Assembly: GCA_947364235.1 (NCBI GenBank)
Contig: CANARY010000007.1
Coordinates: 62,001 to 126,000 of the forward strand
Length of the DNA: 64,000 bases
Source of the DNA: an uncultured Candidatus Melainabacteria bacterium
Lineage (GTDB): Bacteria > Cyanobacteriota > Vampirovibrionia > Gastranaerophilales > Gastranaerophilaceae
Direction of reading: 5' to 3'
Shown here: positions 25,551-43,162 of the stretch, piece after piece
How positions within the stretch are numbered: the first letter of the stretch is position 1
How the letters are laid out: each line of letters starts with the position of its first letter
Made by a program: the position numbers and the translations under genes
The notes under the pieces: generated by a model
What the model was told of the DNA's origin: nothing
Databases searched by the model: none
What the model saw: only the letters and a program-made list of their open reading frames with translations

Positions 25551-25677
25551 TCTTGGATTATTCGGGTACGCCGAACACATTCAACGACTTTTAAATTCTT
25601 ACGAATTTAAGCCGTCGTTTTCGTGTTCTATGCTCTTACGGGTTTCGCTCACGCTCCACCCTTCCGAAAATCCGCTA
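25551..25677 (-). ncRNA. Structured intergenic element, copy A
   Basis: Minus strand: starts at the TAG stop of the 224-aa gene and ends AATCCAAGA just before the next ribosome site. Closing stem GGATTTTCGG / CCGAATAATCC (one bulged T); hairpin GGGT..GC-GTGA-GC..ACCC; long hairpin GAACAC / AACGAC / TTAAATTC capped by GTAA. One of five copies in the late operon. Confidence 0.75.
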
Positions 25678-26349
25678 ATGTTCGCTCTCGGTTCTTACAT
25701 CGCAATAACACTTTTTCATCAAAGCCTGCATTTCATTCTTTGTCATAACTTGATGAATTTCTTTTTTTCTCAAATATCGAGGTATATAATAAGCCGTATT
25801 ATGGCTCGGCTTGTTTTTGACAACGGCTTCGACAATATTCAAAAAATCGGATTCATTGTAAAAAGAATCCGATTGAATAATAAATGTATGTTTTTGGTTT
25901 CTGATTTGTACGGGGTCAACCTTTTTCCCGTTGGGGGTAAGAATAAACCCGTTCCCGATTAACCTTTTTCCGTATGTATTATAATTTTTCGGAATGTTTT
26001 CGATAATATGAACGGGGAATCCTTTCTTTTGAAGAATGTTTTCAATTTGTTTGAAAGTTTGACATCCTGCAAAACTCGACCATTGAGATTCGACATTTGC
26101 CGCCCTTTCTTCAAGGGTTTTTCCTTCGATTTCTTTTATATTGAACAATTCTTCGCCGTTGATTATATCGTTTTCATAAACATTCACGGTCGGAAAGTGT
26201 GTGAATTTTAAATCAATAAGCCTTTTTTTAATTTCGGAAAAAGGCGAAGCCACAACATCCAAAAAATCAGACATAAAACCCGTCGGGGTTCTAAACGCTC
26301 GACCTTTTCCCAATAATTTTTTAAAAGCGATTTCAATTACATTTTTCAT
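25675..26349 (-). CDS. Mu gp48-like (DUF2313/YmfQ) tail protein
   Basis: A 224-aa baseplate-periphery protein. The N-terminus LLGKGRAFRTPTGFMSDFLDVVASPF fits the DUF2313 pattern of a GRAWR-like start and helical body, and the middle TLEERAANVESQW fits its conserved segment. It follows baseplate J directly (1-bp overlap), as in Mu-like phages, and precedes the fibre gene. The family match is moderate. Confidence 0.7.
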   Translation of the reverse strand: MKNVIEIAFKKLLGKGRAFRTPTGFMSDFLDVVASPFSEIKKRLIDLKFTHFPTVNVYENDIINGEELFNIKEIEGKTLEERAANVESQWSSFAGCQTFKQIENILQKKGFPVHIIENIPKNYNTYGKRLIGNGFILTPNGKKVDPVQIRNQKHTFIIQSDSFYNESDFLNIVEAVVKNKPSHNTAYYIPRYLRKKEIHQVMTKNEMQALMKKCYCDVRTESEH

Positions 26350-27620
26350 TATTCATTTTCCCCGTCGGTTTCTGTTGTGAGGTCGGAATTCGATTCTTCC
26401 GAATTATTCTCGCTCGTATAATAAACATCGCCGTTTATTGTCAACGATTTCAAATAGAACAAACAACCGATTCCGAGCGTTGCTTCGTTGATTGTCGTTC
26501 CTGCTTCATTTTTCAAAACAAACGATGTAAATGTTTCCCCGTCGATTACGCCCATACAAGCCGCCGTTAGTTCGGGAGTATTTGTTTTCGCCTTTGATTC
26601 GGGATAATCCAAAACTACAATATGAGGGCGTTTTAAATCCAAAACGCTCGACAAAGCGTTTTTAATTGCTTCATTGTATGAAATATCGGACAAACCGTTG
26701 ATTTCTATGTTCAACCCTGTATATTCGGGCGATTTTAATTCAACCGTCGCCATAACGGGGCGGCGATTGTGAACCCCGATTTCCGAACCTGTTATCGATT
26801 GAGCAACCTGCAGGAATTGCCCCGAACCTTCTAACGGTGTAAAATTCCCGTTTACCCAATTCGGGAACGGATTCGGCGTAATTGTACCCGACGGGGTTCG
26901 GTCTTTTCCTGTCCCGTTGGCTACAATATAAAGAGTTGTAATTCCTTCTGCCAAAACATACGGGAACGCATCAATTATTCCCGAAACTTCCAACGCCCAA
27001 TTATAATAATCAAGAGGGCTTCCCGATTCGGACTTTTTTCGGAATCCGTAAAGAACCCTTTTTCGATAGGTTTCGACCTCTTCATCTTCTGTCCCCTCGA
27101 TTTTTATTTCCGTAACGGTCGCCGTTGAAGGAATTCCGTCAAGAGGGTTCGCAATATTCAAAACCGTTCCGACGGGAATATTCCCGACTTTGCCCGATAT
27201 GGTACATTCGACCGTTGTTATGATTTTTCCGTTTTCGGCGTTTACTTGAGAAATAGTTTTGTAAATTAAACCCGAATTCAAATCCTTGTAAACCGTACCC
27301 GAAACCAAATAAGAAGCCGCCACATTTTGAAGCGTAACGGTTAAATTTGTCGATTGTCCGTAATTGTAATCAACCCCGATTAAGCCGCCCCAAAATTTCA
27401 AAGCCGGAAGTTCGCAGGTTTGAGGAAATATTTGTTTGTAAATCCAAACGGCTAATTGCCAAATCGTCGCCAAAACCCCTGCGATTGCATAACCGAGCGT
27501 TTTTATAAACGCTTTTTCAAGAAGTGGAGTTGAATCCCCATATTTACTCCTCAAAACTGTATATTTCGCCATAAAAGAATCAAATATTTCTTTTATGGTT
27601 TTTGTTGTAAAATTAGCCAC
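26349..27620 (-). CDS. Baseplate J-like protein
   Basis: A 423-aa wedge protein of the contractile-tail baseplate (Mu gp47/P2 J type). The central part shows VSGTVYKDLNSGLIYKT, GKVGNIPVGTVLNIANPLDGI and the adjacent EDEEVETYRKRVLYGFR (about residue 180), which are typical. The C-terminal tail is acidic and low complexity. It lies between the gp46-like and gp48-like genes, the usual order. Confidence 0.88.
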   Translation of the reverse strand: MANFTTKTIKEIFDSFMAKYTVLRSKYGDSTPLLEKAFIKTLGYAIAGVLATIWQLAVWIYKQIFPQTCELPALKFWGGLIGVDYNYGQSTNLTVTLQNVAASYLVSGTVYKDLNSGLIYKTISQVNAENGKIITTVECTISGKVGNIPVGTVLNIANPLDGIPSTATVTEIKIEGTEDEEVETYRKRVLYGFRKKSESGSPLDYYNWALEVSGIIDAFPYVLAEGITTLYIVANGTGKDRTPSGTITPNPFPNWVNGNFTPLEGSGQFLQVAQSITGSEIGVHNRRPVMATVELKSPEYTGLNIEINGLSDISYNEAIKNALSSVLDLKRPHIVVLDYPESKAKTNTPELTAACMGVIDGETFTSFVLKNEAGTTINEATLGIGCLFYLKSLTINGDVYYTSENNSEESNSDLTTETDGENE

Positions 27621-27662
27621 AATATTTCTCCCCTTAATTTCACTTTGCTTTCAAAACTTTCT

Positions 27663-27818
27663 TCTTGGATTATTGCTTCACAAAAACAAGCCGTTCGCTT
27701 CGCTTACGCTGTCGCTCTCTTTTGTTTTTGCTACTTCGGGACTTCGCTTGCGTGAATGAGCTTATGGCTTACGCCAACGCTCCCGCTCCCGCACGCTTCG
27801 CCCTACGCAAAATCCGCT
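27663..27818 (-). ncRNA. Structured intergenic element, copy B (longest)
   Basis: Closing stem GGATTTTGC / GCAATAATCC with one bulged T, a large nested hairpin GCGTG..GAGC..TGGC-GTAA-GCCA..GCTC..CACGC, and a second arm CAAAAACA / TGTTTTTG holding GC-GTAA-GC. The 3' end of the gp46-like gene runs into this copy because the usual TAG is absent, so the last residues (AKRAGAGALA) are encoded by it. Confidence 0.75.
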
Positions 27819-28194
27819 TTTGATTTTCCCAAACGACGGCATAAGATTGTTCGTTGCCGAACGGTTCCGTGATTGTTATATCAACATTGATTTTGTTTTC
27901 AATATTTCCGTAAGCGAAACTTTTGACATCTTCGGCGATTCCGTTATCAATCATCCATTTCAAGCATTTGTTTGCTTTATTTTCAACCGTTTTCAAATTC
28001 TGTTTTGTAATCGGAAGATTTAACGATTCCTCAAATTCATTGTCGGATTCGTATTCTTCAAAAACATTTGAAAAATTATCACCACCGAACAAAGATAAAT
28101 AAACGGATGTATAAAGTGTCCCGTCGCCTTTGAGGTCGCCTGCTTGAAGAACAACTTCGGCTCCGTCGCCGTTATCCATTAGTAAAATATCCAT
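27769..28194 (-). CDS. Mu gp46-like baseplate protein (gp25 type)
   Basis: A 141-aa protein; the N-terminus MDILLMDNGDGAEVVLQAGDL and the segment LYTSVYLSLFGG match the Mu gp46 family, a baseplate wedge protein related to T4 gp25. It overlaps the spike gene by 1 bp. The last 10-12 residues, basic and Ala/Gly-rich, come from reading into the structured element downstream and are probably not part of the original protein. Confidence 0.8.
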   Translation of the reverse strand: MDILLMDNGDGAEVVLQAGDLKGDGTLYTSVYLSLFGGDNFSNVFEEYESDNEFEESLNLPITKQNLKTVENKANKCLKWMIDNGIAEDVKSFAYGNIENKINVDITITEPFGNEQSYAVVWENQKRILRRAKRAGAGALA

Positions 28195-28733
28195 TATGAA
28201 CCCCCCGTCGCTATACCTTTATTAAATGAAGGCTTGTCAAGAACTCCGTCCATACCGTCGGCGGCTTCAATGTGTGAAGCCGTGAATTTTCCTTCGTGAA
28301 GCCAATCCCCCGAAGATGTTATCGAACCTGCTTCAATATCCAAAACCCCTCCAACGCTCAAATTGGCGTTTCCCAAAACAACGATGTTTAAATCTTTTCC
28401 ACTCGAAATAATAACCGAGCCGTCGTTTTTCAAGTGAATTTCGGCAACGGGAAGAATCTCGCCCGTTTCTTCATCTTTTTTAATTGAATAAATTCTTTTT
28501 TCACCCGGCTCGGCTTTTCTTGTTATATCATCACGCCAAGCCATAATTATTCCGTCTGCAGGGTTGCCCCCGATACATTCGCCCAAACCTTCACATTCTT
28601 TCAAAGGACAATAATCATCGCCCCCCGAATGAAATTGAACGAGTTTTGAAGCCCGTCCCGACATCGAAGTTGTATTGAAAAACCTTGTTTGTAAATTTGT
28701 AAATATTTCTGCGATTTTAATTTTTAAGAACAC
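28194..28733 (-). CDS. Mu gp45-like baseplate spike protein
   Basis: About 179 aa from a GTG at 28733 that has AGGAG 10 bases upstream; a longer frame to 28772 is inside the previous gene. The protein has an OB-like N-terminal part (MSGRASKLVQFHSGG), a Cys-rich insertion (CPLKECEGLGECIGG), and a beta-rich repetitive C-terminus (LKNDGSVIISSGKDLNIVV...) as in spike proteins of the gpV/gp45 class. It forms the tail tip that meets the cell envelope. Confidence 0.8.
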   Translation of the reverse strand: MFLKIKIAEIFTNLQTRFFNTTSMSGRASKLVQFHSGGDDYCPLKECEGLGECIGGNPADGIIMAWRDDITRKAEPGEKRIYSIKKDEETGEILPVAEIHLKNDGSVIISSGKDLNIVVLGNANLSVGGVLDIEAGSITSSGDWLHEGKFTASHIEAADGMDGVLDKPSFNKGIATGGS

Positions 28734-29884
28734 AACGGCAACTCCTCGGGTATTTCGTAAGTATAAGCACACGGAAGCGTTAAGGTTAAATAAGTTGAAT
28801 CGGGGTGTCGTCTTTCAACGGATTCGATAACCCAATCCATTTCTTCATCAATTCCGATTTTAGGATTTTTTACAACGGCGAAATCGCCCGATTTTTGAAG
28901 AAGATTTTCGCCAATTAAAGCGTGCAGTTTGAAATGTTTCCCAATCTCCGAACAAGCCCACCTTTTCGAAACATTCGCCAAATCAAGAGAATTATAATCG
29001 TTTGAATCAGAACGCTTTGTTATAGGAACAGGGAACGGAATTTGTGTTGTTGCCGTATCTGTTGAGGGATATTGTGAATTTACCTCATAATATCGCCCAA
29101 GTCCGACGGTTATAAATTCGCCCCGAATCTCTTTCAATCCCAAACACTCTCCGTCAATTAAATTCAATTTTTCTTGTGTGTCGGCTTTAAAACGCCCGAT
29201 AAAAAGCCCGTCGCCTGTGTCCGTGAGCAATAAACCACGGGAACGACAAACACGCTTCATAAATTCCCAAACTGTTTCTTCTTTTTTAGCCGTGAACGAA
29301 GTTCCGATTTCATTCGTGAAAACCTCGTCCAATTCGGGTTCGGATGAAAAAGAAATCTTTTGATTGTAATATCCTGCGACTTGTTCCAAAACGCCACGGA
29401 TTGAACGGTTTGTGAATTCAAAAGGATTCGGCATAACCGTTTCGGTCAATATTCCTGCATGCGATTTTATTTCAATTTGAGTCCAATTCGCAAAATTTGT
29501 TAAATTCGGTTTGATGTTTGCGATTCTACCTTTTAAAAACAAAGAATTTTCGTCGCACAATGTAATCGAATCATTGAACGAAAAATTATAATCGACATCG
29601 GTTTTGTTGAAAATAAAAACGCCGCCTTTTACGGCTTCCAACCCGTGAAAAAGCGTGAATTCCGAAAAATCGTTGTAATTAACTTCCCCGTGTCGAAGAT
29701 AAACTTCGCCCGTGATTTCAATATCGCTTGAATCCGTTTCGGATTCTTCCAAAACCAAAACATTTCCCGATTCAAGATTGTTGTTCATCTTTGCAATATC
29801 GCCCCCTTTTTCGGGCGTTCCGTAAGCACGGCGAGAAATATCGTCCCAAGTATCGCTTGGCGATTTTGAAAACTCTTTATACAT
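28724..29884 (-). CDS. Mu gp44-like baseplate hub protein
   Basis: A 386-aa protein. Residues about 1-45 resemble a LysM/tail-X segment (SDTWDDISRRAYGTPEKGG), followed by a gpD/gp44-type hub fold with the VEFMKRVCRSRGLLL-like block (about 205) where the second domain begins. It plugs the tail tube and holds the spike. The fusion of a tail-X-like start with the hub is noteworthy. Confidence 0.78.
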   Translation of the reverse strand: MYKEFSKSPSDTWDDISRRAYGTPEKGGDIAKMNNNLESGNVLVLEESETDSSDIEITGEVYLRHGEVNYNDFSEFTLFHGLEAVKGGVFIFNKTDVDYNFSFNDSITLCDENSLFLKGRIANIKPNLTNFANWTQIEIKSHAGILTETVMPNPFEFTNRSIRGVLEQVAGYYNQKISFSSEPELDEVFTNEIGTSFTAKKEETVWEFMKRVCRSRGLLLTDTGDGLFIGRFKADTQEKLNLIDGECLGLKEIRGEFITVGLGRYYEVNSQYPSTDTATTQIPFPVPITKRSDSNDYNSLDLANVSKRWACSEIGKHFKLHALIGENLLQKSGDFAVVKNPKIGIDEEMDWVIESVERRHPDSTYLTLTLPCAYTYEIPEELPLCS

Positions 29885-29910
29885 AAGAACTCCGTTCCCC
29901 TTTTCCGATG

Positions 29911-30026
29911 TCTTGGATTATTGCTTCACAAAAACAAGCCACTCATTTCGCTTTCGCTGACATTCGCTTTTGTTTTTGTTCCTTCGAGTTTCGGGCTTTC
30001 GCCCTCACTCTACGCAAAATCCGCTA
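29911..30026 (-). ncRNA. Structured intergenic element, copy C
   Basis: Starts with the TAG stop of the upstream gene. Closing stem GGATTTTGC / GCAATAATCC; hairpin GAGT..GGGC-GAAA-GCCC..ACTC; second arm CAAAAACA / TGTTTTTG with an inner GC-GAAA-GC. It has the same architecture as the other four copies with different stem sequences. Confidence 0.75.
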
Positions 30027-31406
30027 AATATAAATTTTTACTTCACGACCCCTCGGAATCAAAAAGAACTCGTCGTCCGTGAAATTATTTGTTCGAATTA
30101 AATAATCCAAAGTTGAATCGGGGTTTTCCCGAAAACTTTCATTATAAAATTCATAAGCGAGTTCAATCGGCGTTTTGTCCTCTGATAATGTAATTTTTTG
30201 TTCAACTTTTAATTTGTAAGAACGGTCGAGAATTTCATTCGCCGCCTTAAGAACAACATCCAAAACATTTTCATCACGAATAAACGCATCGCCGAGGTCA
30301 ACAATTCTCGAACTTTCTTCATCGACAAAATCGCTCCAAGAATCGTTTAAATCAACAATACTTTTCGCCGCTTCAACGGCTTCGGCTCTTGTTTCAAAAT
30401 TTGTATTCAACAATGATTCGGCAACCGAAACAATCGCAGACGAAGCGATTGAATCGTTCAATTTCAATTCGTCAACCTGTTCGGGTGTATAATTTGAAGA
30501 AATTGTCGATTTCAACGAATCGGTTTTCAAACTATTAACCAAAGCCTGCCAGCCACCAAATAAAGATGAATAACTTGAAGGCAAGTCGAACGAATTTCCG
30601 ATGTTTTTTGTCTGATTTGTAAGATTCGCCGCCTTTTGGAAAATAACCCCGAGTTGCGATGTTATTGTGAACGAATTTGAAATCAAATCTTGCCCCATAA
30701 TATCCGACATAATTGAATTCAAAGAAACATTTGAAGCCGTGTCGAGAGCATTTGAAACTTTTGTCAAAGCCCCTTGAAATTTGTTCGTAAACGAAGCCAA
30801 TCTTGACGGGCTTTGAATAGATTTCGCCGTTTCTTCAACCGTTGAAGCGAGGTTTTCTTTTGTTTTTGCGACGGTTGATTTGATTTCTTTTTGTTTACTT
30901 TTTTCGCTTTTCGGATAAGTCGAAGGTGATGTTTCGTGCCAATTAACCGTTATAATTGTTGAATTGATTCTTTCAACAAGCGAATTTTTCACTTCAAAAT
31001 TTAAAACATTGACCGTGAATTCTTCACCATAAGCAAGTTGAAGTTTTGATTTTCCGATTTGACAAAGGGCTTTTCGAAAAGCGTTTGATTCTGAATAATG
31101 ATTGTCCCCGATAAAATAACAATCGAGCGTTACATCACGCCCCCCGATTCCCAAATCCGTGAATGTATCGTTCGAATCTCCGACACGCTTTTTCGATGAT
31201 GATGTCGAAACGGACGAAGAGGACGAAGAATTTCCCTTTTTTGCCCCCTTTGTCGATGTTGAATGTGAAACGGAAGTCCTCGGGTTTTCTTTAACTTCCC
31301 CGATGTGCTTTTGCGAATAGCCGCTTGAAAGCGTTTTAATTATAAAGGAAGTCCCGTCGGGAGCCGTCCACATTACATCTTGCATTGAATCTTCAAAAAT
31401 TGCCAT
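30024..31406 (-). CDS. Mu gpN-like DNA circularization/tail protein
   Basis: A 460-aa protein. The N-terminal region (WTAPDGTSFIIKTLSSGYSQKH, then GIGGRDVTLDCYFIGDNHY and FRKALCQIG) matches the Mu gpN/DNA-circularisation N-terminal family, a tail/baseplate component. Residues about 45-75 are a Ser/Lys-rich insertion. The rest is helical. It lies directly after the tape measure gene. Confidence 0.8.
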   Translation of the reverse strand: MAIFEDSMQDVMWTAPDGTSFIIKTLSSGYSQKHIGEVKENPRTSVSHSTSTKGAKKGNSSSSSSVSTSSSKKRVGDSNDTFTDLGIGGRDVTLDCYFIGDNHYSESNAFRKALCQIGKSKLQLAYGEEFTVNVLNFEVKNSLVERINSTIITVNWHETSPSTYPKSEKSKQKEIKSTVAKTKENLASTVEETAKSIQSPSRLASFTNKFQGALTKVSNALDTASNVSLNSIMSDIMGQDLISNSFTITSQLGVIFQKAANLTNQTKNIGNSFDLPSSYSSLFGGWQALVNSLKTDSLKSTISSNYTPEQVDELKLNDSIASSAIVSVAESLLNTNFETRAEAVEAAKSIVDLNDSWSDFVDEESSRIVDLGDAFIRDENVLDVVLKAANEILDRSYKLKVEQKITLSEDKTPIELAYEFYNESFRENPDSTLDYLIRTNNFTDDEFFLIPRGREVKIYI

Positions 31407-31478
31407 AATTTTTCCTTTTGATTTATTTTATTTAATTTAATCAAAATGTTTTTACACATTGTTTTTTATTTTTTTGAA

Positions 31479-33308
31479 TCAAGCAGGTTTTAATTTCAAA
31501 TTGCTCGGGCTTTGAAGCGAAGTGTTTGTTTCGGCGTTGTAACCCGTTCTATTGTCAATCGTTGTTTTTACTTCGATTGACCCGTTTTTATTTCCGTTTA
31601 CTTTCGGGCTTTTGTTTTTGACATCGCCGCCGTCAACCCCTTCAATTTTAATTCCCCCTCCTGCTTTAATTTGTTTAATAATTTGAGGAAGGTTCATCAA
31701 ACTTTTAATAATGAAACCGACCGGACCCAAAGCCATAAGAAGAATATTGATGAAATTATCCTTTATAAAACTTCCAACCTTTGAAAAAACATCTTTACAG
31801 GTCGCCCAAAAACCCGAAAGAAGTTCTTTGGTTGAATTCCACCAACTAACAACGGTCGCCGTTACTTTGTCCCAATTCTTCCAAAGAAGAATTACAACTC
31901 CAATCAACGCCATAATTCCGAGCGTAATTAAACCGACAGGCGACATTAGAAACGCCATTGTTTGAGCGGCGAGAGCCGTAACGGATTTCCAAATCGCCGA
32001 AGTGAACATCCCGATTGATTGAACAAGTTTTGTATTCATCAAAACGGACATCAATCCACCTTCCATTCGAAGCAACGCCATTTTTAAACGCCAAATATCG
32101 AGAGCTGTTTGAACTAATTTACAAGCCGAAGCAACTCCGACAATAGCAATCGGCAACATCAACAATAACGGGAGCCAATTATTTTTTACAAAATTGTAAA
32201 AAGCACTTCCCATATCAAAAACAAATTTGATTGCTTTGAATAAATTATTTATTGAATCAATCACCAATCCCAACGCCGGAACAATTACGGTCGCCAATAC
32301 AGTTTTAAACATCGGCATGCTTGTTTGTACTATCGGCATAAGAATTGAATTGAATGTTTTAAATAATTCTTGGAATTTTACAAGAAGGGGAGAGCATATT
32401 CTCAAACCTTCTTCGAAATTTTTAAATAAAGCCCCGAAACCTTTTTCAATGGTTGGCGAATATTTCGTGATTGTAGCGTTCAAAGATTTCATCACGGCGT
32501 TATATTTCGGAAGCATTATGTTTCCGAGCCGTGTTTCCATTTCTTTTTTGTTTTCTTCAAACATTCTCGCTTGGTTGGCGTAGTTGCCCCCCGTTCTCAA
32601 GAAATCGCCTTGGGAATTTTTTGTCGCTTCCATAACATATTGATAACGAAGCTCGATTTTTTGGGCTTGGGACATATCTTTCAATTTACCCCCAATCCCT
32701 TTCTTTTTGGCGAATTCTTGCAGGTTCGTTTCGGTCATTACAACCCCGAGATTTTTTAACGCTTCGGTTTCACCTGTAAAAATACCCTTCAAAGCATTAG
32801 CAGACAACGCTTGGTCGGTGTTTTTGAATGAAGCAATATCTGCAGAAAGTTGGGTCAATGACATCGCCATTTCGGAAGCCCTTTTGGTTGTCATTCCCAT
32901 TCCTGCTCCCATATCACCATATAAAGCCGCCGTGTCGAGAGCCGTTTGTTGAGCAAGCCCCATTGATTTAATTGAAGTTTTACTCCATTCAATAACGCTT
33001 TGAGAATCCGTCTTAAATGTTTCGTTTGTTTTTCCGAGCGTTTCTTGTAAATCGGAAGCCTTGTCAACCCAAGAGCCGAGCGTTTCTTTTATGGCACTTG
33101 CCGCAATTAAAGCAACAACGCCCGTAATTGCCGATTTCACTCCGTCAAAAGAATTTTTGAGAGTTGCTCCGGCTTGTTGGGATTGGGTTTTCAATTTGTT
33201 TAATTGTCCCCCGAATCCCGAAGCCTTATTTTTCATATTTTGGAAAACTCCCGACATTCCGTCTTTTGCTTTAAATGAAGTAAAAACGCTGAATGATTTT
33301 GAAGCCAT
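31479..33308 (-). CDS. Tail tape measure protein
   Basis: A 609-aa protein with an N-terminal coiled coil (KNKASGFGGQLNKLKTQ), a conserved tape-measure block (about residues 55-260, ETLGKTNETFKTD, FTGETEALKNLGVVM), a hydrophobic middle with several membrane-like segments (about 335-480), and a basic C-terminus. It sets tail length; at about 0.15 nm per residue this suggests a tail of about 90 nm. It follows the frameshifted chaperone gene, as expected. Confidence 0.88.
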   Translation of the reverse strand: MASKSFSVFTSFKAKDGMSGVFQNMKNKASGFGGQLNKLKTQSQQAGATLKNSFDGVKSAITGVVALIAASAIKETLGSWVDKASDLQETLGKTNETFKTDSQSVIEWSKTSIKSMGLAQQTALDTAALYGDMGAGMGMTTKRASEMAMSLTQLSADIASFKNTDQALSANALKGIFTGETEALKNLGVVMTETNLQEFAKKKGIGGKLKDMSQAQKIELRYQYVMEATKNSQGDFLRTGGNYANQARMFEENKKEMETRLGNIMLPKYNAVMKSLNATITKYSPTIEKGFGALFKNFEEGLRICSPLLVKFQELFKTFNSILMPIVQTSMPMFKTVLATVIVPALGLVIDSINNLFKAIKFVFDMGSAFYNFVKNNWLPLLLMLPIAIVGVASACKLVQTALDIWRLKMALLRMEGGLMSVLMNTKLVQSIGMFTSAIWKSVTALAAQTMAFLMSPVGLITLGIMALIGVVILLWKNWDKVTATVVSWWNSTKELLSGFWATCKDVFSKVGSFIKDNFINILLMALGPVGFIIKSLMNLPQIIKQIKAGGGIKIEGVDGGDVKNKSPKVNGNKNGSIEVKTTIDNRTGYNAETNTSLQSPSNLKLKPA

Positions 33309-33310
33309 AA

Positions 33311-33469
33311 TTATTCCTTTTTAAATTGTTCTTTATTCATCGAATAACATCGTTTTCCGTAGAAAACCAAATCCGAAGTTGTGAGTTTAAATAATCCCGT
33401 GATTGTTTCCCAATTACAAGCGAGTAAAATATCGCTATAATAATAAGAAATAATCAACTGAACTATGAG
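33311..33469 (-). CDS. -1 frameshift extension of the tail chaperone (GT)
   Basis: After the slippery heptamer TTTTTTC at the end of the upstream gene, the -1 frame stays open for 52 codons (starting LIVQLIISYYY, containing NWETITGLF, ending QFKKE) and stops 2 bp before the tape measure ATG. This is the G/GT arrangement of lambda and gp41/gp42 of Mu. The fused product would be about 193 aa. The extension has no start site of its own. Confidence 0.85.
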   Translation of the reverse strand, partial: LIVQLIISYYYSDILLACNWETITGLFKLTTSDLVFYGKRCYSMNKEQFKKE

Positions 33470-33891
33470 AAAAAATCAACACAAGCCGAAGCGATTTTTT
33501 GGTCTTGTCCTTGGATTTGTTCAATCAATGGAACAGGGCAAGCCGTAACGGTTGCGATTGCTTCGATTGCGACCCCCATTTCTTTATCTTCTTTAAATCT
33601 TTTCATTTGTCCCAAGGTTAAATGCTTTTGATAATACAACGCTTCACGGTGTAATTCGCCCGCCCTTACGGGATTGATTAAAGTTTGAACAAGACAATTC
33701 TTTTCATCATCCCAAAAAACAAGCCCACACATAACGGCTTGAACAAATTTATTGAAAACCGCTTCGTTTCCACCGATTACACTTGTTTTTTCTTCGCATA
33801 TTGAATCCAAATCGGCTTCGCCAATTTTATTTTTAATGTCCTCGATTACTTGAAGAGCCGCTTCTCGTTCCATAATTTTTTTAATTTCCAT
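33463..33891 (-). CDS. Tail assembly chaperone (G/gp41-like)
   Basis: A 142-aa acidic protein between the tail tube/SSB genes and the tape measure, the standard place of the tail assembly chaperone. It has a gp41-like core (CGLVFWDDEKNCLVQTLINPV, about residues 55-75). Its 3' end contains the slippery sequence TTTTTTC just before the TAG stop, so a minority of ribosomes should make the longer GT form. Confidence 0.82.
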   Translation of the reverse strand: MEIKKIMEREAALQVIEDIKNKIGEADLDSICEEKTSVIGGNEAVFNKFVQAVMCGLVFWDDEKNCLVQTLINPVRAGELHREALYYQKHLTLGQMKRFKEDKEMGVAIEAIATVTACPVPLIEQIQGQDQKIASACVDFFS

Positions 33892-33918
33892 TTTTTAATT
33901 CTCCTTTTCTGTTTTCAA

Positions 33919-34381: not shown

Positions 34382-34416
34382 TCTTGTCGGGTTTTATCCT
34401 CTCCCGAGAGCCGTTG

Positions 34417-34539
34417 TCTTGAATTATTGCTTCACGCCTTCAAGTGTTCGCTTCATTCCTTAACAGGAATTGTCGCTCACTTTTCGGCGTTACTTCGGGT
34501 TTGAGCCTTACGGCTCATCACCCTACGCAAAATTCGCTA
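34417..34539 (-). ncRNA. Structured intergenic element, copy D
   Basis: Starts with the TAG stop of the tail tube gene. The closing stem is GAATTTTGC / GCAATAATTC, a compensated G-C to A-T change relative to the other copies. Hairpin GGGT..GAGCC-GTAA-GGCTC..ACCC; second arm ACGCC / GGCGT with AGTG / CACT and ATTCCT / AGGAAT inside. Confidence 0.75.
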
Positions 34540-34920
34540 AGATTTGCGAATTCCTGCTCCGTCTGTACAATGAACTTCAAATTCGTTTGTTAGGTTTTTA
34601 GTTGATGAAATTTCAACTTCGCCACCGATAACACTTCCCGTCAATTCGTAAGTTCTTGAAACACATTCCAAAATAATCGGAATATCGGGAGTTGAACAAG
34701 CGTTCGCCCAAGCATCTTCCAAAGAAGCCGGAACTTTAATTTTCAAGCCTGTTATTTTGCCGATTACTCTCGACATATAAGAATCTGCCGTCCCGTCGCC
34801 GTATTCTTGTGTTTCTGTAACTTTCAAACCTCCGTCAATAACATTCGGTTCGGTATCTTTTGGAATAGCGTATTTCGTCCCGTTTAATGTAAGAGAAATC
34901 GCATCGCCACATTTTCCCAT
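34537..34920 (-). CDS. Tail tube protein (Mu gpM-like)
   Basis: A 127-aa protein following the sheath. MGKCGDAISLTLNGTKYAIPKD and the segment SYMSRVIGKITGLKIKV fit the contractile-tail tube family, with beta-rich content. It polymerises inside the sheath. Its TAG stop is the first base triplet of element copy D. Confidence 0.8.
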   Translation of the reverse strand: MGKCGDAISLTLNGTKYAIPKDTEPNVIDGGLKVTETQEYGDGTADSYMSRVIGKITGLKIKVPASLEDAWANACSTPDIPIILECVSRTYELTGSVIGGEVEISSTKNLTNEFEVHCTDGAGIRKS

Positions 34921-35061
34921 ATTTTATTCTCCTTTTTTTATTTGTACGAGCCTACGGGAGTCGGTGCGTTGGTAAAATGTGAATTTTACCAAAAGCACTA
35001 CGCCCGTTTTAAGGGCTATAAAAAGCCCCTCGGCTTGCTTTTATACCTATCTCAAAATAAA

Positions 35062-35079
35062 GAGGGCTTAAAAGCCCTC
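35062..35079 (-). terminator. Intercistronic hairpin after the sheath gene
   Basis: GAGGGCTT / AAGCCCTC with a 2-4-nt loop, then TTTATTTT on the minus strand. It is terminator-like and could lower expression of downstream tail genes or mark an RNA processing point. Further stems (GGTAAAAT / ATTTTACC) lie at 34970-34990. Confidence 0.6.
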
Positions 35080-35114
35080 CTATGGTTTATCGAAAACAAC
35101 GCTATTATTTAGTT

Positions 35115-36659: not shown

Positions 36660-36672
36660 ATTTGTTTCTCCT

Positions 36673-37314
36673 TTAATTCAAAATTTCTCTTACAAACGGG
36701 TCGATATTTTCGTCCCGAATTCCCAATTTTGTATAAAATTCTTGAATCTCGGTTGTATTCGTGTAATAAGTCGGTTCGCTGAACTCGACTTCGAACTCGA
36801 ATTTTGCACCAAGAACCGTTCCTGCCGTGTTATCATTTTCGGGTGAAACAACACGCTTCCAAGATTTCAAGCGAAATCCTTTAATAAGCCTGTTAGTCGC
36901 CGTATAAAGATTCGTTTCTTCGGAACATAAAATTTTATATAATTGAGCCGTCAAATAATTCAAACGGTCGTCGGCGTTTGAATCTGCCGTTTTTTCTTCC
37001 GTTTCTTCATTCAATCCGACGGCGTAATATTCAACGACAAGATTTCCGACTGCTTCATTGTTATAAACATCTTGTTCATCTTCGGGGAAATTCATTTCGT
37101 TAAAATACACGAAAACGCAGGGCATATCCTCGACATCGGGAAATCGGAATCTTTTTGGAAAAACAATAAAATTGATTATTTGATTAACCCATTCTTCCGT
37201 CGCCCCCGAATTTATGGCGAGTTGCTTTTGATTATCCCGAACATTTACAAGATGTTGAACAATGGCATCTCGAACAATCGTAAAGTTCATCGGCGTTATA
37301 ATACTTTTAATCAT
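36673..37314 (-). CDS. Putative tail terminator/completion protein
   Basis: A 213-aa protein located between the capsid side and the sheath. Its N-terminal half (TIVRDAIVQHL, then MPCVFVYFNE and AVGNLVVEYYAVG) resembles tail-terminator folds of Mu gp37/lambda U type. The family assignment is by position and a modest match. Confidence 0.6.
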   Translation of the reverse strand: MIKSIITPMNFTIVRDAIVQHLVNVRDNQKQLAINSGATEEWVNQIINFIVFPKRFRFPDVEDMPCVFVYFNEMNFPEDEQDVYNNEAVGNLVVEYYAVGLNEETEEKTADSNADDRLNYLTAQLYKILCSEETNLYTATNRLIKGFRLKSWKRVVSPENDNTAGTVLGAKFEFEVEFSEPTYYTNTTEIQEFYTKLGIRDENIDPFVREILN

Positions 37315-37728
37315 TTACAATCCCCCCGAACTTCGTCTTGTAACCGTTTTCCCTTGCCCGTTGGATGTTGAAGCCGTACATTTTATCAAATACATTCCGA
37401 GCGTTCTGTCGGTCGCCACATTTTCGATTTTGAAATCAACGGGTTTTCCGTTCATTTGTGGAAAATACACAACAATGCCCCAACCTCTCGTCGGAATTAA
37501 ATTTGTTTTCTTTTTAACGGTGTCGATATTGATTGTCAATTCAAAAGAATCTCCAAAATATCCCATTCCCGATTCATCGAATGAAACTCCGATAAAAGAC
37601 GAGAAACCCTTTAAATCGAAACTCAAATTCGAATTGATTGGCTTCAATATACAATCCACGGCGAAACCGTTCCCGTCAACGAGAACGGTTTCTTTATGGA
37701 TTTTAAATAATTCGTGTAAATTATTCAT
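37315..37728 (-). CDS. Putative head-tail connector protein
   Basis: 137 aa from the ATG at 37728 (site AAAGGAAT); the frame extends to 37776 but lacks a site. It is a beta-rich protein with SFDESGMGYFGDSFELTI and IVVYFPQMNGKP. It is next after the capsid gene, where lambda-like phages carry connector proteins such as FII. No firm family. Confidence 0.5.
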   Translation of the reverse strand: MNNLHELFKIHKETVLVDGNGFAVDCILKPINSNLSFDLKGFSSFIGVSFDESGMGYFGDSFELTINIDTVKKKTNLIPTRGWGIVVYFPQMNGKPVDFKIENVATDRTLGMYLIKCTASTSNGQGKTVTRRSSGGL

Positions 37729-37745
37729 TTTTATTCCTTTAAAGA

Positions 37746-38816
37746 TTAAACGATGTTGTGAATTGTTGCGAAACAATCAATATCAACAGGAACCAAAAGA
37801 GGGCGTGATTTTACGCCATATTTTGTCGTTGCCGAACCGTCCTCAAGTACATCGTAAGCATAAGGAAGTTGTTCTTGTTCAACTAATTGTAATTTGTTTC
37901 CACCAATACCCGGAGTAGTTGGAGCGTTTGTGTTGTTTATTGCCCCGTAGTATCTTTTGAAGTTTGGATTCATTGGAACTAACAAAGCACAACCTGCAGG
38001 GATATATCCGAATTGTTCGCCTTCATTAGCGAAGCCGAATCCTTTTGGTACGGTGTACGCTTCGTCATAACTCCAAATATTAACGATGTAGCCGCCGATT
38101 GTTGCTCTACCGTGGAACATTGCACCGGGTGTTGCTTCAACGGGCATATTGATGTCGGTTCTCTTAATACCGTCGTTCCATTTTGAGTTTTTACGGAAGT
38201 TTTCATTTCCTAACAAGGCATCCAAACCTTTACTTTCGAAAATCAAATTCCATTCGGAAACGCCGATTTTACCATCTTTCATACAAAGAGAAATCGCATT
38301 GGAAAGAACTTTGGTTGGGTCGGCGTTTGCCGTGTTCCATTTTGCAGTTGAAACGCTGATTTTATGTGTATCTTTCTTTTTAAAATCAATCTTATTTCCG
38401 CCTGCAAGTGTAATTTTTCCATAAAACAACCCGTCGGAAGCCTGTTTTTCTTCTGACCTTCTTTGTTTGTCGGAAAAGATTTCTTGACCGTCATTGATTG
38501 AATTTAAAATATTTGCCGTTTGGTCGTATTCGGTTTGTCCGAGTTGTGCTTTGAAAACATCTTCTTCGTTTAGAGAAGCGATGTCGTTATATTCGGGAAC
38601 CGTAAAATCTCTTTTATCGTATTCATCAAGCGAATTGTATCTTCCACCCGTTCCGAGTTTTGTATCTACTGAATAATAACCTTCAACAACTCGACCTTGA
38701 ATTTCAACCTTGATTCCTTTTAATTGAACCTTTTTGAAAAGATTCGCAAGGAACATTGACGGTTTTTGTTTCTTATCGAATCCGACTTCCATTGCTTTTC
38801 TGATTACATCTGCCAT
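37746..38816 (-). CDS. Major capsid protein (lambda gpE type)
   Basis: A 356-aa protein of the lambda E/SU10-like family: LFKKVQLKGIKVEIQG near the start, FHGRATIGGYIVNIWSYDEAY (about residues 235-255) and the C-terminal VKSRPLLVPVDIDCFATIH, all typical. It is next to the decoration and protease/scaffold genes, giving the lambda order C-Nu3-D-E. Confidence 0.9.
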   Translation of the reverse strand: MADVIRKAMEVGFDKKQKPSMFLANLFKKVQLKGIKVEIQGRVVEGYYSVDTKLGTGGRYNSLDEYDKRDFTVPEYNDIASLNEEDVFKAQLGQTEYDQTANILNSINDGQEIFSDKQRRSEEKQASDGLFYGKITLAGGNKIDFKKKDTHKISVSTAKWNTANADPTKVLSNAISLCMKDGKIGVSEWNLIFESKGLDALLGNENFRKNSKWNDGIKRTDINMPVEATPGAMFHGRATIGGYIVNIWSYDEAYTVPKGFGFANEGEQFGYIPAGCALLVPMNPNFKRYYGAINNTNAPTTPGIGGNKLQLVEQEQLPYAYDVLEDGSATTKYGVKSRPLLVPVDIDCFATIHNIV

Positions 38817-38853
38817 AATAATTTCTCCTTTATTTTTTTGTAATACTGTTTTT

Positions 38854-38890
38854 CGGGAATGAGTTTATGTCTCAAAGGGCAACACTCCCG
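38854..38890. repeat. CGGGAATGAGT-type hairpin before the capsid gene
   Basis: CGGG..AATGAGT to ACTCCCG forms a hairpin between decoration and capsid genes. It is nearly identical at its ends to 21645-21680 (CGGGAATGAGTTTATGTC ... AACACTCCCG), with a different loop. Confidence 0.6.
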
Positions 38891-38927
38891 TTCTTGCAAA
38901 ATTGATTAAGTGATTGAAAAAATATTT

Positions 38928-39338
38928 CTATCGACCCAAAGATGAAACGCCTGCTTGTTCTTCAACATTTATCAAACGGAAATTGTTTGTTTTTAAAGCG
39001 TCAAGAACTGTAACATCGCTCGCATCGGCTTTTTTAATGAAAATCAAGCCGCTTTTGTCAACAATGCCCGAATCAAAAACTTTAATAAGGTCGAAATCTT
39101 CCGAACTTGTTGATTCGTTTACAACATTTTGAGCCAAAATATAAAGAGGTGAAGTTTTGAACGCTTCTGTTGTACTTGTTCCTGCGACATTGTTATCCGT
39201 TGAAAAAGCCACTAATTTTCCGCTTGAATTTCTTCCCAAAACGGTTCCGACTTTCAAGGTTGTTGAAGCGGCAACGGTAAGAGTTACATCGGCGTAAACG
39301 CCTTCGTGAAAGATTTTTGAATTGTCAATGTGTGTCAT
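38928..39338 (-). CDS. Head decoration protein (lambda gpD-like)
   Basis: A 136-aa protein with FHEGVYADVTLTVAASTTLKVGTVLGRN and KLVAF, matching the gpD/stabilisation family that trimerises on the capsid surface. It lies between the protease/scaffold and capsid genes as in lambda. Confidence 0.85.
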   Translation of the reverse strand: MTHIDNSKIFHEGVYADVTLTVAASTTLKVGTVLGRNSSGKLVAFSTDNNVAGTSTTEAFKTSPLYILAQNVVNESTSSEDFDLIKVFDSGIVDKSGLIFIKKADASDVTVLDALKTNNFRLINVEEQAGVSSLGR

Positions 39339-39371
39339 TTTTTATTCTCCTTGTTTTTAATGTGTAATCAA

Positions 39372-39398
39372 TTAAAAGACGGGCTTTTTAGCCCGTCT
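39372..39398 (-). terminator. Intercistronic hairpin between scaffold and decoration genes
   Basis: An 8-bp stem AGACGGGC / GCCCGTCT with a 6-nt A-rich loop, followed by TTTAATT on the minus strand. It is terminator-like and may tune the ratio of scaffold to the capsid proteins. Confidence 0.6.
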
Positions 39399-39430
39399 GC
39401 GTTAAATATAGAGGATTTATAATGAAAAAA

Positions 39431-39829
39431 TTATTTTTCTTCGCCGTACCCCATAGCGTTTATAATTGCGTTAAATTTTTTGTCCTCGGCTTCTTTTTGG
39501 GCTTTTGCTTTTTCTTCCTCGGTTTGTTCGCCGCCTTCTTTTGGTTCGGGAGCGTGTGTTTCTGTTTGAGGGTTTACATCTGCAGGGTTTTCATCTTCCA
39601 TGCCCTTAATTTCCGCCTTGTTTGTTTTTGCCAACAAAATCGATGCTTGGAATTCATCATCGTTCACGCCAACGCCGTCGTTGATTGCTTTGATTACGGC
39701 GTTTTTGTCAACATCAATAAATTTCATTAACGAAGCAACTCTTTTTTGTTCGGCTTTTACCCCTTCGCTTTTTGCTTCGTTGTAAACTGATGCGTTTTGA
39801 GTTTTTAGTTCTTCAAGTGTTTTAGCCAT
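39431..39829 (-). CDS. Nested scaffold protein (Nu3-like)
   Basis: An in-frame ATG at 39829 with AAGGAG 8 bases upstream sits inside the protease gene and would give a 132-aa protein identical to its C-terminal part: MAKTLEELKTQNASVY..., helical and very acidic near the end. Lambda makes scaffold Nu3 from inside gene C in the same way. Confidence 0.75.
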   Translation of the reverse strand: MAKTLEELKTQNASVYNEAKSEGVKAEQKRVASLMKFIDVDKNAVIKAINDGVGVNDDEFQASILLAKTNKAEIKGMEDENPADVNPQTETHAPEPKEGGEQTEEEKAKAQKEAEDKKFNAIINAMGYGEEK

Positions 39830-40585
39830 TTTTATTTCTCCTTTTTCTTCCTGTTGTATTTCGTTTTTAATTTCTTTTGATTGGTTTAACCCGTTTATTT
39901 CAAACGAGCGAGTGGAATTTTGAGCTTGCTCAAATTTTCCCGAGTAAGTGTCGAAAGAAGCTCCGCTTTTTTGCTTCGGGAGTAGAGCGGCGATTTTGTC
40001 GATTTCGTTATCAATCTTCATCGCCTTAATTTTACTTTGGGCTTCGGCGATTCTTTCTCTTGCCCCTGCGATTTTTATTTCTTCGCTTTCGGTTTGATTT
40101 TCGGAATCTTCACCCAAAACAACGCCGAGTTTTTTCAATTTCTCGGCTCCGATGAACCAAGTTTCTTCATCCATAATTGAACGAATTTCGGATTCTTCAA
40201 AAAGCCCTCTTTCAACGAACGCCTTGGCGTATAATTCTGCCAATTCTTCGAGGATTTTGGCTTCTTTTTTCATTTGCCTATAATCGCCAACGGCTAAACT
40301 CCAAGGGTTGTGCAATACAACGATTGAATTCGGTTCGAACTCAACATCCCCGTCGCCTGCCAACATAATATAAGCCGCCATTGAAGAACAATCACCGACA
40401 ACGTGCATGCGACAATTCCCTCGATTATAATTTTTGATTGCGTTATATATTGAAATTCCGTGAAAAACGGAACCACCCGGAGAATCGATTTCAAATTCGA
40501 TGTCGCCCGATAATCTCGAAATTTGTTCGGCGAGGAATTGACCGTTCACATCGGCTCCGATAACGCCTTTAATTTTTATCGCCAT
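39431..40585 (-). CDS. Head maturation protease-scaffold
   Basis: A 384-aa protein. The first 180 residues are a ClpP/S49-like serine protease: DIEFEIDSPGGSVFHG, the nucleophile region GDCSSMAAYIMLAGDG, and the His in VVLHNPW. The rest is the scaffold part, with a strong internal start. It processes the procapsid like lambda gpC. Confidence 0.88.
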   Translation of the reverse strand: MAIKIKGVIGADVNGQFLAEQISRLSGDIEFEIDSPGGSVFHGISIYNAIKNYNRGNCRMHVVGDCSSMAAYIMLAGDGDVEFEPNSIVVLHNPWSLAVGDYRQMKKEAKILEELAELYAKAFVERGLFEESEIRSIMDEETWFIGAEKLKKLGVVLGEDSENQTESEEIKIAGARERIAEAQSKIKAMKIDNEIDKIAALLPKQKSGASFDTYSGKFEQAQNSTRSFEINGLNQSKEIKNEIQQEEKGEIKMAKTLEELKTQNASVYNEAKSEGVKAEQKRVASLMKFIDVDKNAVIKAINDGVGVNDDEFQASILLAKTNKAEIKGMEDENPADVNPQTETHAPEPKEGGEQTEEEKAKAQKEAEDKKFNAIINAMGYGEEK

Positions 40586-40597
40586 TTCAATTCCCCC

Positions 40598-41128
40598 TTA
40601 CTTTTTAAAGCCGCAACCCGTACAAACCCCGTCTACTACTTTAGAGCCGCAAATATGACAAATCCCGTTTACTTTTCTTGGCTCTTCTTTCTTTGGAATT
40701 TTTTCTCCGGGGATTAGTTTTTCGGGTTCTTCCTTTGGTTCTTCTTTTGATTCTTCCTCGGGTTCCTGTGTTTGTTCTTCGGTTGTCGGGATTGGATGAA
40801 TTCCGCCGTCGCCTGCAACAATCACTTCTTCATCGTGTTCGGCGTTTTCTTCTTTTTCGTCAACTTTTTCTTCGGTTGATTCTTCGCCGTTTTCTTCGGT
40901 CGAATTGTTTTCTTGTTCTTTGCCAATTTCTTCGGTTGTTTCTTGGGTGTTTTCGCCTTTTTGTTCTTCGGGTTTAGTTTCTGCCCTTTTTTCGGCGATT
41001 TTTGCTTTTAAAGTGTCAACGCCCCATTTGTTAAAAAAACCATTTAAGCCCACCGAATACGCTTCGGCGATGAGTTCTTTTTGTTCGTTTTCGGGTAAGT
41101 CCGAAACTTTCAATTTTTGTTCTGACAT
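40598..41128 (-). CDS. Acidic protein with C-terminal zinc ribbon
   Basis: A 176-aa protein. Residues 1-50 are a short helical domain (KVSDLPENEQKELIAEAYSVGL), about 50-150 an extreme Glu/Pro/Thr-rich low-complexity linker, and the last 30 residues a zinc ribbon (CHICGSKVVDGVCTGCGFKK). It lies between portal and protease genes. The role is unknown; it could be a head-assembly factor or a host-interaction protein. Confidence 0.65.
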   Translation of the reverse strand: MSEQKLKVSDLPENEQKELIAEAYSVGLNGFFNKWGVDTLKAKIAEKRAETKPEEQKGENTQETTEEIGKEQENNSTEENGEESTEEKVDEKEENAEHDEEVIVAGDGGIHPIPTTEEQTQEPEEESKEEPKEEPEKLIPGEKIPKKEEPRKVNGICHICGSKVVDGVCTGCGFKK

Positions 41129-41140
41129 TTTCTTCTCCTT

Positions 41141-42760
41141 TTACTTTTTCCCGTTGCTGTCCGCTTCTGTGTCGTCGTCATTTGAAGCCCCTCCGTCGGG
41201 GGCGAATAATGTTTCAAAATTCAACCCTGCATTTCTGATTTTTTCTTCTTCAATCTTTCGGCGTTCGATTATCGAATCAAAATCCTGCGTGATTCCCAAA
41301 TCTTCCAAAGATTGTTCGAATGTGGTCAAGCCGCCTTTTAATTTTGAAAGAACGGCGTTTACTTCCTTGACCTCGTCAATATGTGGAATTTTAACCCCGA
41401 CCCATTTCGCCCGTGTGTAAGCGTTATCCAAATAACCGTCGTCGTTTTTTAACTCCAAATATCTCGGGGCGAAAATATTCCCCTTCAAACATTCAAGTTC
41501 AAAAAATCTCTCATAAGTAGGTTGGTAATAGTAGTCAATGATTGAAAATTGTCGGTTATTTTGAAGAATAACTTCAAACATTTTCAAAGCCGCCCTTGAA
41601 GCTGAAAAATTATTCGAAAATTGCATCAAATAAACTTCAAACGGAATTCCAGCCGAAGCCGTAATGTATTTCATCGAACCGTCAACAAACGAAGTATGAT
41701 TTACATTCGGGCGTTTTGTATCGAATGAATTTAATTTTTGTCCCTTCGGCATGTGTATAAACAATCCCGAAGCGATTCTTTTTAAGGAATCTCGGAATCT
41801 TTTTTGTGTAACGCCTTCTTCTTGAGATGTCGTTTCTGCAACATCGACCCCTTGATTTTTTAATATTCGGTCAATACCCGGAATATTTTTCATCGGATTA
41901 ACGCCCGAAGATTCTTTGTCCTGTTCAATCCAAGCGGCGAATTTTGCGTTTGTTTCTGCCGCCATAACTTCGGAGTTAGAATATTGACCGATTTTATTAA
42001 GTTTTTGCATTGTCGCCCCTATAATAGAATAGGAACGAGGGGAATTTAATTTTTTTATGCCACACGGAACAAGCCAAGCAATCAAACGGTCTTTTGAATC
42101 TCTCGCTTTTATATATTGCTCTTTTCCGTCTTTGTCGATTACATAATATCCGATTGGCTTTTCGTTCTCGTCAACTTCTACCCCGTCAACGACCTTGTTT
42201 TTTCTTTCCGAAATAGATTTCGAAGAACGAACCGACATTCCGTTGATTAACTGTTGTACAAGACATCCGTCTTTGATTCTGTTTACAACCAAAATGTCGC
42301 CTGCAATCAAACCGTTGTAATATACGGTTTTCGCCATTTTATGAATCGTTTGGTCTTTTGTAATCGAAACATTTTTGTCTATTTCAAACAAACTCCAAAG
42401 TTCTTGAATATTTTTTGAAAAATCTTCGGGAAGTTTAACATTAAATAAACGCTTCAATAAATTTCTTGAAGGGTTCGGATGTAATCTCAATCCCGTTCCG
42501 ACAACAAATTCGGCTAAACGCACAATCATTGTTCGAGCGTATTCATTTATTGTAACGAGCGTATAAGCCCGAGCCGCCAATTCGTAATAATCAACATCAT
42601 AAACAATCCCCGTATTTAAAGCATACGGTTCTTGCTCGCCGTCAAAATTGATTCCCCAAAATGTCCCTGCAGGATATATTGCTCCTTTGGGTTCGGAATC
42701 CGAATTTCGCCTTTTTCTTGAAAACGGATTATTTATATTTGTAAGAATATTCACAACCAT
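41141..42760 (-). CDS. Portal protein (lambda gpB type)
   Basis: About 539 aa from the ATG at 42760, which overlaps the stop of the W-like gene as TAATG; an upstream frame to 42793 is less likely. The family is shown by YELAARAYTLVTINEYARTMIVRL (N-terminal part), SYSIIGATMQKLNKIGQYSNSEVMAA (about residue 270), and MQFSNNFSASRAALKMFE (about 390). It forms the DNA entry pore at one capsid vertex. Confidence 0.9.
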   Translation of the reverse strand: MVVNILTNINNPFSRKRRNSDSEPKGAIYPAGTFWGINFDGEQEPYALNTGIVYDVDYYELAARAYTLVTINEYARTMIVRLAEFVVGTGLRLHPNPSRNLLKRLFNVKLPEDFSKNIQELWSLFEIDKNVSITKDQTIHKMAKTVYYNGLIAGDILVVNRIKDGCLVQQLINGMSVRSSKSISERKNKVVDGVEVDENEKPIGYYVIDKDGKEQYIKARDSKDRLIAWLVPCGIKKLNSPRSYSIIGATMQKLNKIGQYSNSEVMAAETNAKFAAWIEQDKESSGVNPMKNIPGIDRILKNQGVDVAETTSQEEGVTQKRFRDSLKRIASGLFIHMPKGQKLNSFDTKRPNVNHTSFVDGSMKYITASAGIPFEVYLMQFSNNFSASRAALKMFEVILQNNRQFSIIDYYYQPTYERFFELECLKGNIFAPRYLELKNDDGYLDNAYTRAKWVGVKIPHIDEVKEVNAVLSKLKGGLTTFEQSLEDLGITQDFDSIIERRKIEEEKIRNAGLNFETLFAPDGGASNDDDTEADSNGKK

Positions 42761-43017
42761 TACATCACCCCCGAATCTCGAACGAACATACAATGAGAAC
42801 CCGAACCGTATTCAAGTTCTTCGTTCAATAATTGTCTAAAATAAGCCAATTCGCCCCGAATTGATGTAAGCGATGCTTGTTGAACCGTTGATGAACCTTG
42901 TCCCGAATTGAGCGTGTAAGATGTAACGCCCCCCGATTTAGCGGCTCTCAAATACGCTTCATTTAATGTTTTTATGATTTCTTTTAATTCTGAAACCGTG
43001 TAACCTGTAACGCTCAT
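42760..43017 (-). CDS. gpW-like head-tail joining protein
   Basis: An 85-aa helical protein: YTVSELKEIIKTLNEAYLRAAKSGG then beta-like SYTLNSGQGSSTV and SLTSIRGELAYFRQLLNEE, matching the gpW pattern (lambda gpW is 68 aa). It sits between terminase and portal as in lambda. Confidence 0.78.
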   Translation of the reverse strand: MSVTGYTVSELKEIIKTLNEAYLRAAKSGGVTSYTLNSGQGSSTVQQASLTSIRGELAYFRQLLNEELEYGSGSHCMFVRDSGVM

Positions 43018-43036
43018 TTAATAATTCTCCTTTTTT

Positions 43037-43162
43037 TCTTGGATTATTCGGGTACGCCGAACACTTTCAACGGCTTTAAAATCCTTTTGGATTTTGTCGC
43101 CGTTTTCGTGTTCTCTGCACATACGGGTTTCGCTTACGCTCCACCCTTCCGAAAATCCGCTA
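43037..43162 (-). ncRNA. Structured intergenic element, copy E
   Basis: Starts with the TAG stop of the terminase gene. Closing stem GGATTTTCGG / CCGAATAATCC; hairpin GGGT..GC-GTAA-GC..ACCC; second arm GAACAC / AACGGC / AAATCC capped by AAAA. Compared with copy A the AACGAC/GTCGTT stem is AACGGC/GCCGTT, a compensated change. Confidence 0.75.

Follow-up and report, generated by a model that had tools for sequence, protein, structure and literature searches.

Small palindromic repeats are common in bacteria, and their movement is mostly unexplained. REP repeats are defined as palindromes of 20 to 40 bp with an unpaired GTAG or CGTC tag at one end (PMC3733652), and they are known targets of other mobile elements (PMC1525189). 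Rickettsia palindromic elements are known as in-frame coding inserts, and QMITE2 of Coxiella burnetii is a repeat located mainly in 3' untranslated regions (PMC10969869). Here, we analyze a structured element that occurs five times in a 64-kb stretch of Gastranaerophilales DNA containing a prophage (referred to as the window). In our preferred reading, to which we give a probability of roughly three in four, the five copies arose by independent insertion of a small (~110 to 155 bp), nonautonomous mobile repeat that is endemic to the host's Gastranaerophilales family.

Five folded copies in a prophage

An earlier note on this DNA placed five copies of a shared fold in the window, and we recovered all of them within ~2 nt of the positions it gave, on the minus strand.

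25551 to 25675, minus strand: copy A, CGG subtype; the TA at 25676-25677 and the element's first G make the TAG stop of a 224-aa gene (25675-26349)
27640 to 27663, minus strand: AAGAAAGTTTTGAAAGCAAAGTGA (KKVLKAK-stop), the 3' end cut off from the baseplate gene by copy B, contiguous with the gene in relatives
27663 to 27817, minus strand: copy B, GCG subtype with a longer first arm, within the baseplate wedge gene 27769-28194 (PHROG 180)
29911 to 30024, minus strand: copy C, GCG subtype; its first G is the end of the TAG stop of the baseplate hub gene 30024-31406
34417 to 34537, minus strand: copy D, GCG subtype with a GAATT/AATTC closing stem; its first G is the end of the TAG stop of gene 34537-34920
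43037 to 43160, minus strand: copy E, CGG subtype; its first G is the end of the TAG stop of the terminase large subunit gene 43160-45142

Read directly and folded, the copies are 113 to 155 nt long, and all five lie in sense orientation. In four of the five (A, C, D, and E), the preceding TA and the first G of the element form the stop codon of the upstream gene; the insertion point of copy B is ~8 codons upstream of the natural stop of the baseplate wedge gene. The element begins with (TA)GCGR and ends with (C/T)CAAGA, which take the form GCG(G/A)ATTTT and AATAAT(C/T)CAAGA in the window. Every copy folds as the earlier note described, with a closing stem carrying a bulged T, then a hairpin with a GNRA-type loop, and then a second long arm. 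The variants of the closing stem were also found on folding as it had listed them: GGATT-TTGC..GCAA-T-AATCC in B and C, GGATT-TTCGG..CCGAA-T-AATCC in A and E, and GAATT..AATTC in D.

A covariance model built from 36 relatives of another subtype (R1), from which the window copies were left out, found exactly these five copies in the 64-kb window (E values of 3.9e-13 to 1.9e-6; next match, 0.13). A simple rule (a GCGRA head, a TYCAAGA tail, and a closing stem of at least 8 bp with no more than one bulge) returned the same five and nothing else in the window, with no match in the reversed window; applied to 1.0 Mb of analyzed loci, it gave 188 matches, versus 1 in the reversed control. Both the model and the rule thus recover the copies far beyond chance. 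The description of the fold as unknown holds up: with the covariance model built and Rfam searched, no Rfam family matched at the copies at the gathering level, and for the stretch with copies A to C, lowering the threshold to an E value of ≤5 gave chance matches only, far under the gathering scores. Phage GenBank records yielded no match to 25 to 45 kb of the window, and we found no description of this repeat in the literature.

The window also contains a diversity-generating retroelement at 22225-24042 (minus strand), with the following parts.

22225 to 23382, minus strand: reverse transcriptase of the retroelement
23399 to 23475, minus strand: RT-18 RNA
23502 to 23656, minus strand: first 155-nt repeat, template-like
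23657 to 23811, minus strand: second 155-nt repeat
23888 to 24042, minus strand: third 155-nt repeat, at the end of the tail gene 23875-25536

The second and third repeats differ from the first mostly at positions where the first has an A. At 60986-62530 lies the gene for a large serine recombinase; its end overlaps with a tRNA-Leu gene of the opposite strand, and this is possibly the attachment end of the prophage.

Empty sites and spread through the host family

The earlier note had proposed looking for variable presence between related phages, and the element is indeed missing at comparable sites of relatives. At site E, six relatives pass from the terminase gene directly into the next gene (..AACTTA/ATAGGAG.. 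in L205; here and below, the slash marks the junction). Site B is uninterrupted in relatives (ENQKKILKAK-stop in L209 and L210, ENQKKVLKAL-stop in L222); in the window, ENQ is separated by the element from the preserved AAGAAAGTTTTGAAAGCAAAGTGA, so the baseplate protein now ends inside copy B. The genes flanking site C overlap or abut in related phages, and the element is absent. At site D, relatives have a spacer after the same C-terminus without the element, and at site A, the neighboring genes are more diverged in relatives and the comparison is not clean. Host palindromic repeats are likewise found in both empty and occupied forms, namely, CAGGAGA/GGGGTGGGG (L197), GAACT/TGTTTCAGG (L120), and GAGGGA/GTCCGC (L176 and L175). 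The pairs at L197, L120, L176, and window site B give a target duplication of 0 to 2 nt, base-exact empty sites being few and the right end of the element variable (CCAAG, CCAAGA, or CCAAGACA). Copies are also nested inside REP-like hairpins and arranged in head-to-tail arrays, mostly with 1 to 2 nt from AAGA to the next GCG. By these sequence comparisons, the element is an insertion, and a nonautonomous, structure-dependent mobile DNA repeat is the best-supported mechanism.

Intron-like or self-splicing removal was considered because copy B leaves the tail of its gene intact and some copies sit at GTTCGA/AATCC. Joining the flanks gave no tRNA gene, and the sites look like duplicated tRNA 3' ends, so we rejected this possibility.

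Several host loci have their own architecture. At L165 to L182 and L195 to L199, other dispersed palindromic families (GTCATCCTGAACTTGTTTCAGGATC; GTCATTGCGAG..GCAATCC; CCCTCTCC..GGAGAGGG) are insertion targets. At L116 (7410-7685, minus strand), further hairpins are nested within the arms of the element, which is about doubled in length. At L193 (genome G154, contig C8), two inverted pairs of identical copies frame a 4-kb region, which holds the gene for a 1,094-aa PMP-repeat protein and not a transposase.

A search for the two ends over 84,980 species genomes returned at least 115 stretches, with record titles that nearly always named Candidatus Gastranaerophilales or uncultured gut bacteria. 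Sequences from Prevotella, Dyadobacter, Maribacter, and Pirellulales records are missing the paired arms of true copies and were discarded as chance matches. The strict pattern occurs in 110 of 286 genomes of the window's own order, nearly all of them from one family (control, 0), and the covariance model finds copies in 37 of 39 genomes of the host genus, with up to 17 per genome. Near-identical copies lie at unrelated sites within single genomes (G169, G133, G252, and G274), a sign of recent movement. The element belongs to one Gastranaerophilales (Melainabacteria) family, as a repeat dispersed through its genomes, and is not a phage feature. The earlier view that it is dispersed through the late operon was thus correct in that the copies lie between different tail and head genes but not in assigning them to the phage, since the host-family repeat is also found at chromosomal genes.

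The window's own genome has nine matches, comprising the five in the window, one in a second prophage, and three that are weaker or shorter. That six of the nine fall within two prophages (p of ~1e-6, with the prophage share of the genome estimated at ~5%) suggests that phages may be vehicles, and viral contigs are among the carriers of the element. The second prophage, at ~353 to 375 kb of contig C1 (L223, L221), is related to the first and has its own reverse transcriptase gene; its copy of the element is inserted in the loop of a terminator-like hairpin.

Constraint on the fold and placement at stop codons

The earlier note read the covarying closing stem as a conserved RNA fold. The covariation itself was upheld in larger alignments, with 122 double-change cells versus 35 ± 6 after shuffling in a first test and 99 versus 33 ± 4 in a second; the signal was lost when partners were slid (at most 21 and 10 cells, respectively). 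The RNA part of the claim was not supported. In a structured RNA, G.U pairs are expected to be far better tolerated than A.C mismatches. The helices of the element, over 1,315 pair cells, have no such excess (13 G.T and 13 A.C), despite the use of a structure program that favors G.U. By comparison, 41 tRNAs from the same loci have 46 G.T versus 2 A.C in their acceptor and T stems (Fisher's exact test, 7e-6), a control that includes some fixed G.U sites and tRNAs found by a program that accepts G.U. The helices, and with them the fold, thus look as though they are kept as Watson-Crick DNA rather than as RNA.

The loops are biased as well. On the sense strand, 88 of 181 tri- and tetraloops are of the form G..A and only 4 are T..C. 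GNRA loops, which the earlier note had pointed out, are present (39 of 109 tetraloops) but are not exclusive, as GNYA accounts for another 17. Loops of the types cGNAg and cGNNAg form extra-stable DNA hairpins. Together, pairing that is restricted to Watson-Crick combinations and strand-biased G..A loops suggest that one DNA strand folds.

These data bear directly on the possibility that the element is a cis-acting RNA placed between cistrons, with a selected RNA fold that controls processing, stability, or translation. Such a role would fit the sense orientation of all five phage copies between late genes, the host copies at the stops of highly expressed operon genes, the GNRA loops, and the finding that two genomes with a copy at the same site match better within the copy than in its flanks. 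We nevertheless consider it decidedly unlikely: besides the equal numbers of G.T and A.C, which differ so clearly from the tRNAs, many copies are antisense, lie between convergent genes, or are nested in repeats, the same sites are empty in related phages, and one copy truncates a baseplate gene. With the repeat present host-wide and G.T equal to A.C, we rejected a phage-specific regulatory RNA as the main reading. In two other phages (L009 and L065), the element is positioned in frame with the beginning of a tail gene, and in L039 and L161, it supplies a Shine-Dalgarno-like sequence and the start codon of the next gene; the greater likeness of same-site copies than of flanks in such pairs leaves room for function.

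Covariation restricted to Watson-Crick pairs, with G.T no more frequent than A.C, could also arise by mutation, if replication switches template from one arm to the other, so that an arm is rewritten to complement its partner (quasipalindrome correction). Differences between the arms of copies do come in blocks, as this process would produce. However, neither the conserved bulged T nor the strand-biased loops would be expected from it, and it accounts for the fold but not for dispersal; we regard it as possible, although not likely.

Within the preferred reading of a mobile DNA repeat, the position of the copies relative to genes is a striking property. Among sense genes with a stop codon within -150 to +20 of the element's first G (n = 41), 20 copies begin exactly at the stop of the same-strand gene (TA/G), and every other position has 0 to 2; antisense genes facing the other end of the element give no positional spike. 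Besides those at the phage copies in the window, the genes with a copy on their stop encode GroEL, EF-Tu, S11 (twice, with different subtypes), L2, L3, L6, MnmE, MscL, a phage capsid protein, and baseplate J. Insertion after TA supplies a G, so that a TAG stop is kept. Selection alone should allow any position shortly past the stop equally, and thus the data call for either some targeting of the stop or selection for a function at this one position. At highly expressed genes, the exact placement could reflect selection for function at that point. Alternatively, insertion may be coupled to translation termination, with entry between the second and third bases of the stop (TA/R) in sense orientation and a preference for highly translated genes. 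We think this coupling unlikely; if it were true, the target would be recognized on the ribosome or in mRNA and not in plain duplex DNA, for example, at an A-site-cleaved mRNA end or where a transcription-translation complex exposes single-stranded DNA. We found no description of a stop-codon landing mechanism in the literature.

When distinct sites are counted, 33 end in TA, ~15 are preceded by another element, 13 end in GTTCG(A), 7 lie behind a terminator-like T run, and 11 lie within REP-like or CTCTCC palindromes. The GTTCG(A) sites look like duplicated tRNA 3' ends. At L034, L092, L058, L018, L024, and other loci, repeated units of the form GATGAGAACC-hairpin-GGTTCGA(element)AATC..CCA duplicate tRNA 3' ends, with several per genome, and from their sequence these units resemble tRNA-gene attachment sites of small cassettes. 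At the groEL stop of other genomes, the same ends occur with other closing stems (GAAATTCC/GGAATTTC, GAAATTAC/GTAATTTC, and GAAATTGCC/GGCAATTTC), indicating that both the ends and the site are common to a wider superfamily. Across the groEL 3' ends of one genus (L263 to L282), a structured repeat comes after most of the listed groEL stops; its family varies, and several often stand in tandem.

Candidate mobilizers and comparison with known repeats

We infer that the mobile form would be a single DNA strand folded into a three-way junction, with G..A loops and a T bulging out close to the foot; an enzyme supplied in trans would cut and join this strand at the unpaired ends GCG.. and ..AAGA. Stop codons would be tolerated and favored as landing sites because a copy entering behind TA leaves the reading frame with an intact end (TA + G = TAG). 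The phage copies would be mostly neutral passengers, possibly carried between hosts by phages, and any effect on late mRNA would be secondary.

No mobilizing enzyme was found. The IS110 (DEDD) transposase was detected in 0 of 13 active genomes, and a reverse transcriptase was found in 7 of 13 and not found in the other six. The element does not appear to depend on IS110, Y1 transposase, reverse transcriptase, or integron integrase, although metagenome-assembled genomes may miss genes, so these absences are arguments and not proofs. No gene-carrying parent element with the same ends was found among the flanks and unpaired ends searched.

Two known routes for folded single strands were weighed in this light. 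One is the REP/RAYT system, in which a Y1 (HUH) transposase moves a repeat via a single-stranded hairpin. Hairpin DNA, a single folding strand, and the lack of a clear target duplication are consistent with it, and Y1 genes and copies are weakly associated (34 of 64 genomes with Y1 have the element versus 75 of 200 without; p of 0.03). However, several active genomes (G169, G133, G219, G274, and G252) gave no Y1 match and fall outside the Y1-positive set, the element is near 0 of 30 Y1 loci, and its ends are missing the GTAG or CGTC tag, which makes this route improbable. The other is an attC-like site, a folded single strand with an extrahelical base and variable arms that is moved by a tyrosine recombinase. 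The bulged T near the foot, the variable arms, the tandem arrays, the unclear target duplication, and the preference for gene ends would all suit such a site. Against it, an integron integrase above the cutoff was found in 0 of 13 active genomes, which have other tyrosine recombinases only; the ends GCGR..TYCAAGA are not attC boxes; and no gene cassettes were seen between copies. We consider this route very unlikely.

On the mobile-repeat reading, gut Melainabacteria and their phages carry a large family of mobile folded repeats that is apparently undescribed. Clean empty sites and many near-identical copies are available in this family, together with a covariation-proven fold and a test of DNA versus RNA constraint, and its precise landing site at stop codons makes the mechanism directly testable.

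Among known systems, integron attC sites share a folded strand, an extrahelical base, variable arms, and arrays with the element, which differs in being without integrase, cassettes, and attC ends. Rickettsia palindromic elements resemble it in size (~150 bp), hairpin structure, restriction to one lineage, and occurrence inside genes as well. In the element, however, stop codons are preferred and open sense frames run through fewer copies than in shuffles (29 of 131 versus 42 ± 5); an in-frame coding insert of the Rickettsia type is thus not supported overall, the phages L009 and L065 being single cases. QMITE2 shares the 3' untranslated location, but base-exact stop placement and a conserved DNA fold are not reported for it in the sections of the source (PMC10969869) that describe it.

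REP repeats and their RAYT transposases (PMC3733652) are alike in being palindromic, mostly downstream of coding regions, and suspected of single-strand DNA mobility. In contrast, the element is ~4 times longer (113 to 155 nt in the window), has other ends (5' GCGR and 3' CCAAGA), has no linked Y1 gene flanked by the repeat, and inserts into REP-like hairpins, the last of which fits the known role of REPs as targets of mobile elements. Enterobacterial ERIC/RU repeats and bacterial MITEs share with it a size of ~127 bp, intergenic location, an imperfect palindrome, dispersal, and the absence of a gene. It differs from them in that its duplication is only 0 to 2 nt, its closing stem G(G/A)ATT..AAT(C/T)C is inverted while the outer GCG/AAGACA is not, its modular arms covary around a three-way junction, and its sites are placed exactly at stop codons. 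Although it lacks the features by which each of these classes is defined, the element would, by analogy, work like MITE, ERIC, or REP repeats.
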